Part shown: positions 8,691 to 26,103 of the stretch, piece after piece | Layout of the letters: each line of letters opens with the position of its first letter | Numbering within the stretch: position 1 is the stretch's first letter | Source of the DNA: Bacteroidota bacterium | Lineage (GTDB): Bacteria; Bacteroidota; Rhodothermia; Rhodothermales; UBA10348 | Assembly (NCBI GenBank): GCA_029262855.1 | Contig: JAJCYP010000060.1 | Coordinates: forward strand, 1 to 36,986 | Reading direction: 5' to 3' | Length of the DNA stretch: 36,986 nucleotides | Notes under the pieces: model-generated | Databases searched by the model: none | Told to the model about the DNA's origin: nothing | The model's input: only the letters and a program-made list of their open reading frames with translations | Made by a program: the position numbers and the translations under genes

Positions 8691-11600
8691 TTAATTCTGG
8701 GGCCCGATAATATGAAGGATCCAGGCATCTTGCGGGAGCCTGGCCCCCAGACGGCGCGCGAGGTCGCGGGCGGCCACATCACTGTCCAACCTGCCGATGG
8801 CGACCACGATGCCGGAACTACGCCGCCAGGTGCCCACCCATATCTCGGGCTTGCCGAACTGTCCGAGTTGGATCACCAGATTGTCCCGCACTTCCCGAGC
8901 CGTCTCGAGGTCCCTGACCTCCGACAGGACAATCGTCCATCCGGACCAGCGCGTAGCGGGCCGCTCCTCTTCCTCTTCGGCCATCTGGAGATTCTCAGCG
9001 GGCATCGCGTCTGCCGACCGGACAATGGGCATGTCCGCGACGCTGACCATCTCCACGTCCCGAGCTCCAGGCATGCCGATAGGCCGGTTGGGCACACTCA
9101 CCGAATCGGGTTGCGCCGGGTTGTCCACCACCGTCTCACTGAGCCGAGGGACACCCTTGACGGGCACACCAGATCCGGTCGAGTCTGCGCCCGCGATGGC
9201 CAACGAGTCGGCGCCCGCGGTGGCAAACGAGTCCGGAGCCATTGCGGCCAGCGATTCGGCCATGGCCAGCGAGTCAGCGACCAGCACCGCCAGGGAATCG
9301 CGCTCCGCAGCTTCAAGGGCGACCCGTATCGAATCAAATACGGCCTGTTTCTCGGCCGCCATGTCGTCGATGGCCTTCAGTAACTGACCGGCGGCGGTGG
9401 CGTACCGGGTACCGTTGAATCGCCCCGTCAGCGACTCCATGAGTCGCCGCAGCGTCACCTCATTCCACGGTCGCTCGGGCTCGGTCAACGCCTCAGGCTC
9501 GACGAAGGCGATCTCCGGACCTGTCACCTGAATGGTCGAGTCCGCCGGCGCCAACTGAGAGGTCGAGTCCGCTCCGGCCAGTTCAGCGTCGGCCGCTGCC
9601 AGTTCTGCTGCCACGGCGGCTATCGAGGCCGAGGCCACGGCCAGCGAATCCACGGCCAGCGAATCCACGGCCAGCGAGGCCACCGCCAGCGAGGCCACGG
9701 CCGCCGAATCCACCACCACCGAGTCCGATTCCGACGCCGGCACATCGGTGGTGTCCGCCATGGCACGAATGCCAGGCGGAAGCGCCGCCATCGAATCTGC
9801 GGGTGCAGCATCGGTGGTCAAGGTGGAGTCTGCCGCTGCCGGCGTCAGCTCATCCATGTCAACTTCGGCCGAGGATGGGACTCCGGCAAGCGAGTCGGGA
9901 CTCAGTCCATCGACCCACGTAGAATCTGCGGTCGCCGTCGTCGAATCCACCGCGGTGGCCGTTGTCGTATCCGGCCAGGCGACGAGGCCGGCACGGACCA
10001 GAAGCGAATCGGCCACGCCAATCGGCAGCGGCGCGTCCGCGCTCAGGGAATCGGGATCGACCCAGTCCAGATATACGGACCCGGCCGCGAAGATAGCCTT
10101 GGGGAGAATAGACGTCGTTGGAAAGAGACCCGCGGTCTCCAGCATTCCATTCAGCGCCTCGGCATGCTGATCCTGCTCCCAGACATCGAAGAAGCGGGCG
10201 TAGTAGGCCTCGGCCTGAGCCAGAGAGTCCGGCCCCAGATCCTGATCCTCCTCGACCCCAAGCAGCGCACGAATCCGGCTGGCGAATTCGGTGTCCGGGT
10301 AGTCGATGAGAATACGCTGATAGATCCCGTTTGCCGCAGAGGAATCGCCCAGGGCGCGCTGGATCTCGGCGAGCGCAAAGAGTGCCCTTCGGGCCACGGG
10401 TTCATCGGGTGTGTCCTCAAGAACCATCCTGTACCAGACGGCGGCGGAGTCAGGACGCTCAATCCCGAGGAAAAGCGTGTTGCCCACATCATACCGCGCC
10501 AGCGCCCGATTGGCCTTCATGTCGGCCTGGGACGTAGAATCGCGAGGTACTGCGGACAGGTCCACCTCCGGGAGCTGATCCTCAAGGAGTTCGACCTCCT
10601 CTTCCTCGCCCGCCAGATCACCGGCTTGCACCCCGGCACCCAGCACGGCCTCCATCCGACGCCAGTTCGGAACCCTGGCCCGTTCTCCCCACCGAATGGT
10701 GAACGAGAGCTGTCCCTCCTGGCGCATCACCGGGTCATCGTGGAAGAGGAAGCCTGCTTCCTGCCCGTTCGCGTTACCCGATGGGATGACTTTTCCGGCA
10801 GGCAGACCCCGATTGGCGCCCTGACTGCTGGCGGTTTGCTGGAAGGCGCGCGCGATCTGTCTTTCCTCCTGAAGCCGTTGCCTCTCGGCCATCTCTTCGG
10901 CGCGCAGGCGCCGCAACTCCAGGACCTTCACGGCAAAGGTCGAGTCGTCCATCGTCCCGAGCACGAGCAATGAATCCATCCGATGGACTTCCCGATATGC
11001 CGTCGCAAAGGCACCGAAGGCCTCCTTGAGTTCCTGGGAGTTGCGGATGGCCTCGGGCGACAGCCTCAACGGATCAACGGCGGCTCCCGAGAGGGACGAT
11101 CCCGAACGAAGCGCCGAGGCGGCGGTATCGAAATGGGCTGCGGCAAGGACGAAGTCCTCGTCCAGGTCGCGGTAGAGCTGTGCCAGACTGTAGTGGATCC
11201 GGCCACGCAGCCCGCCTATTTCCTGGGCAAAAACCTCATCATACAGGAGTTCGTCGTAGACGTTGTAGGCATCATCTGCCCTGCCCATCGCCCGCAGTAT
11301 ATCCCCACGCAGGAGCGCCAGTTCGCCCCGGTAGGCAAAGTGTTTATCGTCGCGCTCCATCTTGCGGAGCCGGCCGAGTGCATCATCCGGATCAAGCCGC
11401 GAGCCTTCGACACGAATCGCACTGTACTGGGCCGCGTAATCAAGCTCGTAGTCCGGGCGATACCCACGTACCCGCCGATACGAGGCCACGGCTTCCTCAT
11501 ACTGACCAAGCGTCTCGTAGACCTGCCCCAGAAGGAAACTCGCGCGAGCCGCGATCTCCTTGTCACGCACCACGTCGAGCCCCTCGCTCAGGTCTACGGC

Positions 11601-12200
11601 AGCGCCTGCCCAGTCTCCCTGTTTGACCCGGAGCTCTCCAAGGGCCAGTCGAAGGGAGGCCACCCACTCTCGGCTTTCTACCGCACCCGCGAGGGCTTCG
11701 GTAATGGTCAGTTCGGCCCGCTCGAAATCACCACTGGCAACGTGGGTTCTGGCCAGCCAAAACCATCCTTCCTCCGCCAACCCGGTCCCCAGATCGATGA
11801 CCTCGCGGAATTTCTGCTGGGCTCCGACATAATTGTTCTGGAAGAAGTAGGACTTTCCGATAACCAGCAGTGCGTCGTCTACCCACTTGGACTCGGGATG
11901 GTCGCGAAGGACGTCGGCGCTCTTGAGCACGGCATCCTCGAAGTCCCGCCCCCCTCCCGCCGGTCCAGACCTGATAAAGACCCCTATGTACTCGGTCCGG
12001 TCTACCGAATCATTCCGGCGCTCCTGACTCTTGACACCCGCCCTGTACGAACGGCGCGCGTTGTAGAAGGTGTTGTAGAGCGCGGTGAAATTGTCATACC
12101 GCTTCCCCACAAACGAGGAAGACTTGCAGCCCGCCAGAAAGACGGGCGCAACCAGCAGGAAGAATAGGACGGCGCAGAAACCGAGAGCACGCGATCGCAT
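8691..12200 (-). CDS. PorW/SprE-like TPR lipoprotein with Asp/Ser/Ala repeats and a C-terminal SPOR-like domain
   Basis: A 1169-residue lipoprotein; I take the ATG at 12198-12200 (a TTG two codons upstream is also in frame). The signal peptide ends at a lipobox LAGC, followed by SSSFVGKRYDNFTALYNTFY. This RxYxNxTAxYNxxYN pattern is characteristic of the T9SS/gliding lipoprotein PorW/SprE. Residues ~60-700 are tetratricopeptide-like helices (for example QVYETLGQYEEAVASYRRV). Residues ~770-1060 are low-complexity Ala/Asp/Ser/Leu. The last ~85 residues (WTIVLSEVRDLETAREVRDN onward) look like a SPOR peptidoglycan-binding domain. The neighbour at 7818 is PorV-like and pyk lies 60 nt upstream. The assignment to T9SS is an inference from the N-terminus and context. 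Confidence 0.65.
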   Translation of the reverse strand: MRSRALGFCAVLFFLLVAPVFLAGCKSSSFVGKRYDNFTALYNTFYNARRSYRAGVKSQERRNDSVDRTEYIGVFIRSGPAGGGRDFEDAVLKSADVLRDHPESKWVDDALLVIGKSYFFQNNYVGAQQKFREVIDLGTGLAEEGWFWLARTHVASGDFERAELTITEALAGAVESREWVASLRLALGELRVKQGDWAGAAVDLSEGLDVVRDKEIAARASFLLGQVYETLGQYEEAVASYRRVRGYRPDYELDYAAQYSAIRVEGSRLDPDDALGRLRKMERDDKHFAYRGELALLRGDILRAMGRADDAYNVYDELLYDEVFAQEIGGLRGRIHYSLAQLYRDLDEDFVLAAAHFDTAASALRSGSSLSGAAVDPLRLSPEAIRNSQELKEAFGAFATAYREVHRMDSLLVLGTMDDSTFAVKVLELRRLRAEEMAERQRLQEERQIARAFQQTASSQGANRGLPAGKVIPSGNANGQEAGFLFHDDPVMRQEGQLSFTIRWGERARVPNWRRMEAVLGAGVQAGDLAGEEEEVELLEDQLPEVDLSAVPRDSTSQADMKANRALARYDVGNTLFLGIERPDSAAVWYRMVLEDTPDEPVARRALFALAEIQRALGDSSAANGIYQRILIDYPDTEFASRIRALLGVEEDQDLGPDSLAQAEAYYARFFDVWEQDQHAEALNGMLETAGLFPTTSILPKAIFAAGSVYLDWVDPDSLSADAPLPIGVADSLLVRAGLVAWPDTTTATAVDSTTATADSTWVDGLSPDSLAGVPSSAEVDMDELTPAAADSTLTTDAAPADSMAALPPGIRAMADTTDVPASESDSVVVDSAAVASLAVASLAVDSLAVDSLAVASASIAAVAAELAAADAELAGADSTSQLAPADSTIQVTGPEIAFVEPEALTEPERPWNEVTLRRLMESLTGRFNGTRYATAAGQLLKAIDDMAAEKQAVFDSIRVALEAAERDSLAVLVADSLAMAESLAAMAPDSFATAGADSLAIAGADSTGSGVPVKGVPRLSETVVDNPAQPDSVSVPNRPIGMPGARDVEMVSVADMPIVRSADAMPAENLQMAEEEEERPATRWSGWTIVLSEVRDLETAREVRDNLVIQLGQFGKPEIWVGTWRRSSGIVVAIGRLDSDVAARDLARRLGARLPQDAWILHIIGPQN
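9634..9708 (-). repeat. 15-bp tandem repeat (five units) inside the PorW-like gene
   Basis: Five consecutive units of the form GCCACGGCCAGCGAA, with few substitutions, encode a five-residue repeat (S/A)LAV(D/A) on the minus strand. The unit keeps the reading frame, so copy-number change would lengthen or shorten the linker without breaking the protein. Looser versions of the same motif continue on both sides. Confidence 0.85.
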
Positions 12201-12259
12201 GAGCAATAGTCTGTTCAGATCGTAGCGTTTCTCTCTATGGGTCTTGCTGGTCAGTTGGT

Positions 12260-23196: not shown

Positions 23197-23331
23197 ATGG
23201 CATCCGGGAGTTGAGAACCGGTCGGGAATGCGACGATTGTGATGAATGGAAGAAGGGCTTTAGTCTCGCCATGGACCGCCGATACCCTCGCTATGAGTTG
23301 TATCCCCCGTCGCTCCAAGACACCCGCCGCA

Positions 23332-26103
23332 ATGATCTCAACCAAGACTGGCCTCGGGCTCGTTTTCGCTTTCTTTCTTTTCGCCGGCTGCTCTGACAGT
23401 CTTCTGGATGCCCCGGGCGAGTATGACAGAACCTCGAGCGAAAGCCCCGCCATGGAAGGAAAACTGCGTCATCCGCAGCTGGCCGGGCAAGGCGGTTCTT
23501 CCATCGCGAGCAAACTGGGCGACGACTCGAATGTATTCGTGGCCTTCACGGAGTATGAAGCCGATGGCGTGACTCGCCGGGTTCTGGACGCGTACGGCGT
23601 CACGCGGAGGATCCTTCAGGAGTACGGCGTGACGCGACGCGTTCTCGATAGCTATGGCGTCACCCGCCGCGTTCTCGAAGAGTATGGCGTCACCCGCCGC
23701 GTCCTGGAGAGCTACGGCGTTACGCGGAGAGTTCTGGAGTCTTACGGCATCACGGGTGAGATTCTGGACCAGTATCAGTACACGATCACCGATGCGCTCC
23801 TTGCAGAGTTCGGCCTTTCGATCGAAAAACTGGAGGCCCAGGGCGTCACGCGTCGCGTCCTCGAGGAGTATGGAGTCACCCGCCGGGTGTTGAGTCAGTA
23901 CGCCATCACCGATCAGCAGTGGGACGAAGCTGTCGCTGCATTCGAGCGCAGTCTGCGGCTCAAGGTCCGGATAGACGGGGCCGTTCCGGGCGTCTTCCTG
24001 TCCCTGGGCAGCCTGCCCCTTTTGACCTTCCTGGAGGAGGTGGCTGACGACATCGACATCTCCTTTGTGGAAATCGACGTTACGCTTTCTGGACCACCGG
24101 TCGGCACCATCCTTCGGACGGACGCCGGCAACGAATTGTTGCCCTGGGGCGTCAACCACATCGGCGCGCCGGGGACGGCTACGGAGGGGCTTGGGAACGT
24201 CCATGTCTACGTGCTGGACTCTGGAGTCCGTGCGAGTGCGGACCTGAACGTGGTCGAGCGGAAAGACTTCACGATGCTGTTCGCCAACCGGGACCAGACG
24301 ACCTGGGATGACACCAAGATTCTTGAGATGCCGTACTTCGATCCCGGATCGGCCGGCAATCCGGAGGATGAGACCGGACACGGGACGCATATCGCGGGCA
24401 GCATCGGGGCCATGGCCAACGGTCGCGGCGTGATTGGTACCGCTCCCGGCGTAGCAATTCACAGTCTGAAGGTCCTGACCGCGCAGGGTCAGACAGATAT
24501 AACCACGGTTCTTTCGGCGCTCGACTATGTCCTCGTTCAGAAGCTGCACGACCCGGCCAGGCCGATGGTGGTGAATCTGAGCCTGGGTATGGACATTGAG
24601 TCGACTACTTACAACGTGTTGGACGAGGGCATTCGCCGGGCGACCGAGCACGGCATTCACGTGGTGGTTTCGGCAGGAAACGCGGCGTCCGACTCGCGCA
24701 CCTTCTCGCCGGCGCATGTCTCGGAGGCCATAACGGTCGGCGCCTACGGGCCGATGGGTGACTATGCCTCGTTCTCCAACTTTGGCGCGAGCGTGGATCT
24801 GCTTGCACCGGGCGACCTGATTGCGTCGCTGTCGAACGATCCGGCCGACGAAGCAGCGAACCTGGCGGTGATCGAGAGTGGCACCTCCATGGCCACAGCC
24901 CATGCGACCGGGGCGGTGGCGCTTCTCTTGGCCCAGAATCCGCAAGCGCTGCCAAGCAACGCCCGGAGGTATCTGATGTCGACAGCGGCACCGACCGTAC
25001 GATCCACTCCTGAGGGCACCGCGAATCGTGCCCTGAGCGTCGGACACAGCATCCTCCAGAATGCCTCGCTGCCGCCGTTCCTGCAGTTTGCGGTCGCCGC
25101 ACGTGGGACCGTTGAGGTGTCACGGGGGGCGGTCACCGCGCCGGCTGGTGCAAGCGTAAACGCGAGTGTCTACGCCGGTACGAGCCACATCGGCTTGAGC
25201 ACGGGCACGGTCGAGGGCTTCGCCTACTACGTGGTCGAGGATGCGTCCAGAACTTCGTACACCCCGGTATTCAACCCGTCCGGACTGGAAGCCAGTCGCC
25301 AAATTACGCCGGTAGAGATTCCCCATTTCGATATCGCTCAGCTCAGTGCACGCGCACAGAGCGCCGGTTCTGGTGTGGAGTATCGGGAAACCGACGGCGA
25401 CCTCGTGTTGTCGGAGGATGTCTTCCTGGGAACGGCCGAGACCCCAGTGGTGTGGCATGTTCACGGCCGACTGACCAATGCGTCCGGCGCGACGGTTTCA
25501 GGTTACGGCACCTTCCTGGTGCACGGGAATGTTCGACTGAATCACTCGCTCGCCACAGACTCCAACTCCGCTGTCGCACTCATTTCTGACGGGGAGGTCT
25601 GGGTGGCCAAAGGGACAACCATCAGCGGACACCTTTTTTCGACGGCAGGCGCATTCGTCGAAGGCGACATGCGAGGCAGCGTGATCAGCCAATCGAATGC
25701 GGAAGTGTGGGGAGGAACGCTGGCGTACGCACCCATCCCGTGCGTGCTCACCGAGGCGTTCTGGCCGACGGGTCTCTGCAGCGCCGAGGGACTGGAGATG
25801 GCCCCGGAATACGGCGGTACCGACGTGCTCGTGAGTGATGCGCCAGCGACTGCGCTTTCGGATTCGATCGTCCTTGAAACATGGGCCAAGTCGAACAAGA
25901 GCCAGAACGAGATCCAACTCCAGTGGAAGGGAGTGACGACCGATCGGGTCGATATCTACCGAGATGGCGTGCTGGTGATTACCAGGAATCACACCGGAAC
26001 GTGGAACGACGCTACTGGGAATATCGGATCGTGGACCTACGTGCACCGTGTTTGCGAGGCTGGCACGCTCGTGTGCTCCCCCGAGGTAACAACCAGCTTC
26101 TAG
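23332..26103 (+). CDS. Subtilisin-like (S8) serine protease lipoprotein with decapeptide repeats in its pro-region
   Basis: From the ATG at 23332 the 923-residue product has a lipoprotein signal ending at Cys20 (LFAGC); the ATG at 23293 would add 13 residues. Residues 78-199 are about twelve ten-residue repeats of the form YGVTRRVLEE. An inhibitor-I9-like segment (~205-255) follows. The catalytic domain has Asp296 (YVLDSGV), His350 (GHGTHIAG) and Ser519 (SGTSMATAHATG), all intact. After ~600 come beta-rich regions, one resembling polymer-forming shell repeats (WVAKGTTISGHLFSTAGAFV), and a final Fn3-like module (~830-923). There is no T9SS sorting domain. It is presumably a cell-surface protease; the role of the repeats is unknown. 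The convergent neighbour is a T9SS cargo protein. Confidence 0.88.
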   Translation: MISTKTGLGLVFAFFLFAGCSDSLLDAPGEYDRTSSESPAMEGKLRHPQLAGQGGSSIASKLGDDSNVFVAFTEYEADGVTRRVLDAYGVTRRILQEYGVTRRVLDSYGVTRRVLEEYGVTRRVLESYGVTRRVLESYGITGEILDQYQYTITDALLAEFGLSIEKLEAQGVTRRVLEEYGVTRRVLSQYAITDQQWDEAVAAFERSLRLKVRIDGAVPGVFLSLGSLPLLTFLEEVADDIDISFVEIDVTLSGPPVGTILRTDAGNELLPWGVNHIGAPGTATEGLGNVHVYVLDSGVRASADLNVVERKDFTMLFANRDQTTWDDTKILEMPYFDPGSAGNPEDETGHGTHIAGSIGAMANGRGVIGTAPGVAIHSLKVLTAQGQTDITTVLSALDYVLVQKLHDPARPMVVNLSLGMDIESTTYNVLDEGIRRATEHGIHVVVSAGNAASDSRTFSPAHVSEAITVGAYGPMGDYASFSNFGASVDLLAPGDLIASLSNDPADEAANLAVIESGTSMATAHATGAVALLLAQNPQALPSNARRYLMSTAAPTVRSTPEGTANRALSVGHSILQNASLPPFLQFAVAARGTVEVSRGAVTAPAGASVNASVYAGTSHIGLSTGTVEGFAYYVVEDASRTSYTPVFNPSGLEASRQITPVEIPHFDIAQLSARAQSAGSGVEYRETDGDLVLSEDVFLGTAETPVVWHVHGRLTNASGATVSGYGTFLVHGNVRLNHSLATDSNSAVALISDGEVWVAKGTTISGHLFSTAGAFVEGDMRGSVISQSNAEVWGGTLAYAPIPCVLTEAFWPTGLCSAEGLEMAPEYGGTDVLVSDAPATALSDSIVLETWAKSNKSQNEIQLQWKGVTTDRVDIYRDGVLVITRNHTGTWNDATGNIGSWTYVHRVCEAGTLVCSPEVTTSF
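23563..23928 (+). repeat. 30-bp protein-level tandem repeat (about 12 units) encoding YGVTRRVLEE
   Basis: Units in order: eleven of ten residues and one of twelve, beginning DGVTRRVLDA and ending YAITDQQWDE. The central six are nearly identical, while the seventh to ninth (YGITGEILDQ, then YQYTITDALLAE and FGLSIEKLEA) are divergent. DNA units differ mainly at silent third positions (for example CGCCGC versus CGGAGG for the two arginines), so the protein sequence is what has been kept. Confidence 0.9.

Follow-up and report, generated by a model that had tools for sequence, protein, structure and literature searches.

A decapeptide repeat array inside the I9-like pro-domain of a putative S8 lipoprotein protease from Rhodothermales

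The pro-domains of subtilases are commonly regarded as fast-evolving folding helpers, and in the I9 fold the first helix, normally a single one, stands between strands 1 and 2. Our analysis concerned a window, the whole 36,986-nucleotide stretch of contig JAJCYP010000060.1 (assembly GCA_029262855.1; Bacteroidota, Rhodothermia, Rhodothermales, UBA10348), in which the gene of a putative S8 lipoprotein carries an array of about twelve ten-residue units at positions 23563-23928 (122 residues on translation). Judged by sequence comparison, this array is an expansion inside an I9-like pro-domain and not a separate region ahead of I9.

Compared with Peptidase inhibitor I9 (PF05922), the pro-domain of these proteases has the same place between the signal and the S8 domain, the same strand-helix-strand-strand-helix-strand order, as read from alignments, and the same end (..DPDIxWxEPD), and differs in carrying, instead of the helix that separates strand 1 from strand 2, a series of 2 to about 12 decapeptides or of 2 to 7 hexapeptides. 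SUB1-ProM, a stand-alone subtilisin propeptide of Plasmodium (PMC6993865), is a free pro-domain-like protein as is the product of one relative (L075, below); it differs in phylum, its abstract mentions no tandem units, and an inhibitor role for L075 is putative. Vpr of Bacillus is likewise an extracellular S8 protease, described as polymerising (PMC10657474), and its pro-region matches our single-motif profile. The same report has the Vpr fibrils built of the mature protein (residues 158-802 visible, two assembly domains) and not of the pro-domain (PMC10657474). A phmmer search aligned the array to residues 549-646 of PDB chain 9ngw_A (E=2.2e-8), which is DotG/IcmE of the Legionella Dot/Icm system, whose repeats have the same ten-residue period in the register G-[FY]-[TS]-x-x-x-L (G-[VI]-T-R-R-[VI]-L in the array) and, in PMC7511231, are called penta-peptide repeats and left unmodelled. 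DotG/IcmE is, however, a secretion core component that lacks the I9/S8 context and has other residues at the variable positions, and the NCBIfam DotG model (NF033900) gave the window protein 13.2 bits, far from its cut-off of 750. This match was kept as a resemblance only, a helical period shared without demonstrated kinship. Titles and abstract openings in the open-licence literature gave no description of such subtilase pro-domain repeats, which is weak evidence of absence.

The gene was divided into the following parts, with the basis of each assignment in brackets:
23332..26103, + strand, putative S8 lipoprotein gene (translation and list of open reading frames)
23332..23391, + strand, signal sequence with the lipobox LFAGC at its end (read from the sequence alone)
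23389-23391, + strand, lipobox Cys codon (read from the sequence)
23392..23529, + strand, linker with the KLRHPQL motif (read from the sequence)
23530..23562, + strand, first strand of the I9-like domain, NVFVAFTEYEA (alignment with array and two-unit relatives; predicted fold)
23563..23742, + strand, six decapeptide units with an Arg-Arg pair, or RR units (translation; RR invariant in five aligned genes)
23743..23838, + strand, three degenerate units, YGITGEILDQ, YQYTITDALLAE and FGLSIEKLEA (translation, alignment)
23839..23898, + strand, two RR units, QGVTRRVLEE and YGVTRRVLSQ (RR invariant in five aligned genes)
23899..23928, + strand, last degenerate unit, YAITDQQWDE (translation)
23929..24078, + strand, remaining I9-like domain with strands 2 and 3, second helix and last strand, to FVEID (hhalign with two-unit, hexapeptide and single-motif relatives)
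24199..25002, + strand, Peptidase S8 catalytic domain (PF00082, 138.7 bits, residues 321-588)
25003..26103, + strand, C-terminal region (no Pfam match)

The presumed start is the ATG ahead of the signal sequence and was chosen by that sequence; an in-frame GTG upstream, at 23239, also leaves the frame open. The PF00082 score lies over the gathering cut-off of 21.8 bits, and the predicted catalytic Asp, His, Asn and Ser, located by alignment with four relatives, fall in VLDSG, GHGTHIAG, SAGN and SGTSMA.

The first-pass annotation, made without database searches, had described about twelve near-perfect decapeptides with a constant Thr-Arg-Arg-Val-Leu core and had set them between the lipobox and the I9-like part. 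The array is real at 23563-23928; its placement had to be revised, as it lies within the I9-like part. Eight of the approximately twelve units carry RR, and the first six, from DGVTRRVLDA through YGVTRRVLES, share the core T-R-R-[VI]-L, while the middle of the array holds the partial unit YGITGEILDQ, the degenerate 12-residue YQYTITDALLAE and the degenerate 10-residue FGLSIEKLEA. Residue identities at a lag of ten numbered 59, whereas 10,000 shuffles averaged 9.35 and never exceeded 21, and Tandem Repeats Finder reported periods of 30, 60 and 90 bases across 23564-23754. Pairs among the eight RR units had a mean proportion of synonymous differences (pS) of 0.66 and of non-synonymous differences (pN) of 0.20, in agreement with the silent third-position changes that had been noticed between units. 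No Pfam or NCBIfam model reached its cut-off over the array region of the window protein, consistent with the earlier view that no described family has this repeat. The Pfam Decapeptide repeat region (PF25296) scored 18.1 bits over residues 161-228 against a gathering cut-off of 45 and was dismissed as a chance match, as 22 of 60 relatives and 6 of 14 control genomes also gave matches of this kind, all of them sub-threshold.

The position of the array was established by alignment with its relatives. Five arrays (the window gene, L064, L065, L066 and L069) align across 183 columns with a single one-residue gap, RR being kept at all eight RR units of the window gene; four of these genes agree in the position and length of the three mid-array degenerate units, which in L065 are one residue shorter. 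The two-unit relatives, which run in the order strand VNLVLGL, YEADG, two units, charged strand IRIKV, second strand, helix and DPDIAWVEPD, align along the whole pro-domain, and their units fall between strand 1 and strand 2, so that the array occupies the place of the I9 first helix. Profile comparison by hhalign connected the array to the two-unit profile at 99.0%, the two-unit profile to the hexapeptide (99.4%) and single-motif (99.2%) profiles, the hexapeptide to the single-motif profile at 99.5%, and the array to the single-motif profile at 94.2%; these alignments mainly cover the final units and what follows them in the pro-domain, and strand 1 was placed by the pattern of the two-unit alignment. 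The kinship of the window pro-domain to I9 is indirect, through this chain of 94-99.5% to single-motif pro-domains, one of which (L147) matches Pfam I9 weakly (E=0.056). Among relatives of the same class, L171 exceeds the Pfam I9 cut-off of 21.2 bits with a score of 21.5, and L196, L136 and L147 give matches under it. Profile searches of the PDB returned the Vpr pro-region 8jmw (E=0.0043) and the proteinase K precursor 8rse (E=0.64) with the single-motif profile, and 8rse (E=0.072) with the hexapeptide profile; matches obtained with the two-unit alignment were judged to be chance. The earlier statement that S8 proteases carry I9 domains and not such repeats does not hold in Rhodothermales, where hexapeptide arrays are common at the same spot.

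Comparison of profiles from 202 hexapeptide and 80 decapeptide units gave one fitting register of ten, with a score of 9.76 and the next best at -2.23, in which decapeptide positions 6-10 and 1 are laid on hexapeptide positions 1-6. This single register points to RVLExY as the core of the decapeptide and GVTR as its spacer. The Asp/Glu and Tyr of the decapeptide, which the patterns used to collect units left unfixed, also fall in register, and as judged from these profiles the decapeptide and hexapeptide units have a common origin. In a tree of catalytic domains, which takes in 62 of the 88 proteins described below, all 13 decapeptide rows, that of the window gene included, group in a single clade (100/98), characterized by the G-[VI]-T-R spacer. 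Two-unit genes are scattered within it, and the long-array gene L072 pairs with a two-unit L073 gene (100/99), indicating either two origins of long arrays or a later shortening. Of the six rows that carry a motif-less label, three (L143, L171, L196) fall outside all other rows, and three tree labels are wrong: L148 has three KFLSRY copies (labelled none), L198 is without a pro-region, and the 526-residue L128 protein has its tandem copies in the catalytic part (labelled hexa2).

The repeat is retained in close homologues of the window protease. The source genome holds a second array gene (L064), and a genome of the same genus has array genes on six contigs (L065-L070), two of which, L067 and L068, are near-identical and run off their contig ends; a third genome of that genus (G001) has no such array. 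Two-unit relatives occur in another family of the order, namely both L073 genes, the second L074 gene, L132 (which is the L091 gene) and L131. The decapeptide form is rare: a search with the array profile matched 8 of 244 genomes of the class, and the consensus query matched 2 of 395 genomes in a phylum sample. Two of the eight (G156, a TPR-like frame, and G087, another repeat protein) were set aside as chance or unrelated on reading the sequences. Another repeat protein of the class, at L087 979-2268 (+ strand), has units like DGAVTGSTLAN by eye and is seemingly unrelated. Within the order, 31 of 113 genomes matched the hexapeptide query; in a phylum sample of 385 genomes 13 did so, all of them Rhodothermales. 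Viral contigs yielded no relative, and plasmid and phage records no match to a 49-residue array query; the whole window protein matched ordinary S8 proteins in 341 plasmid records, none beyond 80% of its length.

A catalytic-domain search of 238 class genomes gave 89 matches in 43 genomes, 88 of which were examined as distinct proteins (G026:C64 was left out, and five have a cut reading-frame head). Tandem units were found in 71, a single motif in 7 and neither in 9, the remaining one (L198) lacking a pro-region. These counts amend the automatic classes (hexa 52, deca 13, dodeca 3, single 8, none 12) after reading by eye, by which L131 was moved to two decapeptides, L180 to two spaced copies and L192 to three hexapeptides, and L198 was set aside; the position between strands was likewise judged by eye except in L130, L141, L167, L176, L178, L186, L194 and L197, which were classed by pattern alone. 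Arrays contain from 2 to about 12 copies when the unit is a decapeptide and from 2 to 7 when it is a hexapeptide, beside the single-motif form R-[IV]-L-[DE]-R-Y, and hexapeptide arrays include RILERY x7 (L138), KIVDRY x6 (L140, L141, L167, L176), EVVDRY x6 (L187) and KVLDRY x5 (L172, L173, L177, L178). Motif copies also stand just ahead of strand 1 (L074, L147, L149, L156, L161, L164, L168, L174) and between the catalytic Asp and His (L074, L128, L149, L195). Copies of [IL]L[DE]R[YF] in the Asp-His insertion were seen at L128 1973-3550 (- strand), in a 376-residue frame of L195, at L074 6011-7483 (- strand) and at L149 from 1039 onward (+ strand), in tandem in L128 and L195. The L075 gene (5255-6229, - strand) encodes a free-standing lipoprotein in which a lipobox and an I9-like end accompany degenerate decapeptide units, and a tblastn search with the window protein as query detected no S8 catalytic domain in the 8.6 kb around it; its product is possibly a stand-alone protease inhibitor.

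Selection on the copies was assessed from codon usage and from conservation between genomes. In the 24 hexapeptide and 10 decapeptide arrays with four or more units (L064 being counted twice, also as L128), synonymous codon identity between units of one gene was 0.346 for decapeptides against 0.358 expected from the gene's own usage, and slightly higher than expected for hexapeptides (0.517 against 0.461). Across 53 hexapeptide genes, unit identity averaged 0.885 within and 0.539 between genes, and the within-gene value reached at most 0.597 when units were shuffled among genes 1000 times. All units are identical in 29 of these 53 genes, 20 of which have three or more units, and Arg at position 5 is the sole residue constant across genes (0.99 within and between genes). 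In four sets, picked after their arrays were known, the array was better conserved than the catalytic domain: 1.00 to 0.74 for KIVDRY x6 in four genomes of one genus, 1.00 to 0.68 for KVLDRY x5 in four genomes of another, 1.00 to 0.63 in two genomes of a third, and 0.70 to 0.60 in five decapeptide genes of two genomes. The agreement of residues despite near-random synonymous codons, together with this superior conservation, indicates that the copies are under selection, and where synonymous sites are saturated recent copying cannot be the explanation. The units would either change together under selection or belong to arrays that are occasionally rebuilt, with each copy then strongly held; every copy seems to matter.

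Starting from the demonstrated position inside the pro-domain and the demonstrated selection on the copies, we give a probability of about one half to the proposal that the first helix has been multiplied in tandem and that its copies pack on one another as a rod carried by the lipid-anchored inhibitor domain. In the simple form a single R-[IV]-L-[DE]-R-Y motif follows strand 1 and precedes strand 2; this motif would have been multiplied as contiguous hexapeptides in most proteases of the family and, in the window-gene clade, as a decapeptide with the G-[VI]-T-R spacer in 2 to about 12 copies, kept by purifying selection. Each copy may be a short helix packed on the neighbouring copy, giving a rod or solenoid that would jut from the lipid-anchored inhibitor domain, hold the pro-protease off the membrane and perhaps allow neighbouring molecules to associate. 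Like-on-like packing would explain why copies are alike within a gene and unlike between genes, and a motif that associates with copies of itself would be expected to recur elsewhere in the protein, as it does in some relatives ahead of strand 1 and in the Asp-His insertion. The first-pass suggestion that each unit is a short helix agrees with two structure models, both of which have about one helix per unit at low confidence, the mean predicted local distance difference test (pLDDT) scores being 38 and 54 and blocks of 61-85 occurring in the second model over residues 61-140 only.

Several observations weigh against this proposal. As the structure prediction was too poor, the rod shape and its function are only inferred, and Foldseek found no match at E<=0.001. 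Hexapeptide units drawn as one continuous helix would have hydrophobic residues on all sides, which disfavours a lone exposed helix. Pfam I9 did not match the window protein, the eight S8 relatives scanned at E<=1 or six of ten further proteins, and the patterns used to collect units fix some hydrophobic positions, which favours the register test. Units are not identical in 24 of the 53 hexapeptide genes, and those of the L129 and L134 arrays are just 53% identical within the gene. Lastly, same-position codons are no more alike than other-position codons in the pairs L135/L162 and L139/L183, so that arrays may be rebuilt occasionally and the within-gene identity may be partly mutational.

The same copies could instead serve as a multivalent docking arm, in which each unit would by itself bind an external ligand or partner (surface polysaccharide, lipopolysaccharide or a partner protein), the copies would raise avidity and mutual packing of units would not be required. 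Near-identical copies, with one constant Arg per hexapeptide and gene-specific variation elsewhere, would suit gene-specific ligands, and L075 provides a protease-free version; yet no ligand or partner gene was found, the neighbours in the window seem unrelated, and the copies in the catalytic part and before strand 1 suit self-packing equally or better, and we hold this alternative only tentatively. The spacer or binding arm proposed in the first-pass annotation is possible and lies close to the rod proposal. A purely mutational origin, in which slippage or unequal recombination expands a tolerant helix into short-lived arrays whose extra copies are of little use, would account for unit numbers that vary between clades, for two-unit and long arrays as neighbours in the tree (L073/L072, 100/99) and for same-position codons that are not always more alike than others. 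It is unlikely, however, given synonymous sites between units at or near saturation while the residues agree, and given KIVDRY x6 and KVLDRY x5 arrays unchanged in four genomes each whose catalytic domains are 74% and 68% identical.

Cleavage of the array also has to be considered. The annotation had suggested a string of dibasic sites that the protease cuts itself; cutting by this or another protease would release or time the enzyme, and adjacent Arg residues in each of the eight RR units, invariant in five genes, would fit, as would the RR or KR of some hexapeptide units (L165, L192). The homologous hexapeptide units nevertheless mostly lack a basic pair, position 4, before the constant Arg, being D/E in 84% and R in 9%, and decapeptides of G013 and G033 often have Q, K, T, N or P for the first Arg. 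In addition, the catalytic domain is closest to the proteinase-K, aqualysin and savinase types and has no acid where its T-F-S-P aligns with savinase S-Y-P, although acids occur nearby, which makes any statement on specificity tentative; dibasic cutting is disfavoured and in our estimate highly improbable. By analogy with fungal pheromone precursors, the pro-domain might even be a self-processing multi-copy precursor, cut by the protease on the same chain into several identical peptides of six or ten residues, which would serve as gene-specific signals. Such a precursor would be expected to have copies that are identical within a gene and different between paralogues, with near-saturated silent sites, but the location inside a folded pro-domain speaks against it, and we consider it very improbable.

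These data describe a repeat that is built into a pro-domain and nonetheless surpasses the catalytic domain in conservation in the four sets compared, with unit identity held within genes and differing between them while the DNA bears little or no trace of recent copying. One order provides a natural series, from no motif through one motif to 2 to 7 hexapeptides and 2 to about 12 decapeptides, in which one can ask how a repeat structure grows from a single helix, what keeps units alike without homogenisation of the DNA and what an inhibitor domain gains from the repeat.

Further features of these proteins and of the window were recorded. The KLRHPQL of the window linker lies at 23461-23481, and among the 83 uncut relatives a K-x-R-[HNFYQ] pattern follows the lipobox in 60 and a lipobox pattern was found in 69, both patterns being crude; the linker motif perhaps has a role in sorting or first cleavage. 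S8 lipoprotein genes often adjoin, two or three in a row (L073, L074, L128, L147, L152, L159). C-terminal parts vary widely among relatives, with a ricin-type lectin domain in L144 (991-2814, + strand) and, as judged by eye, long domains that are repeated in L069 and L070. Two more tandem arrays, at 9180-9233 and 9630-9722 of the window (24- and 15/30-base periods), lie within the frame of a tetratricopeptide repeat (TPR) protein at 8691-12206 on the - strand.

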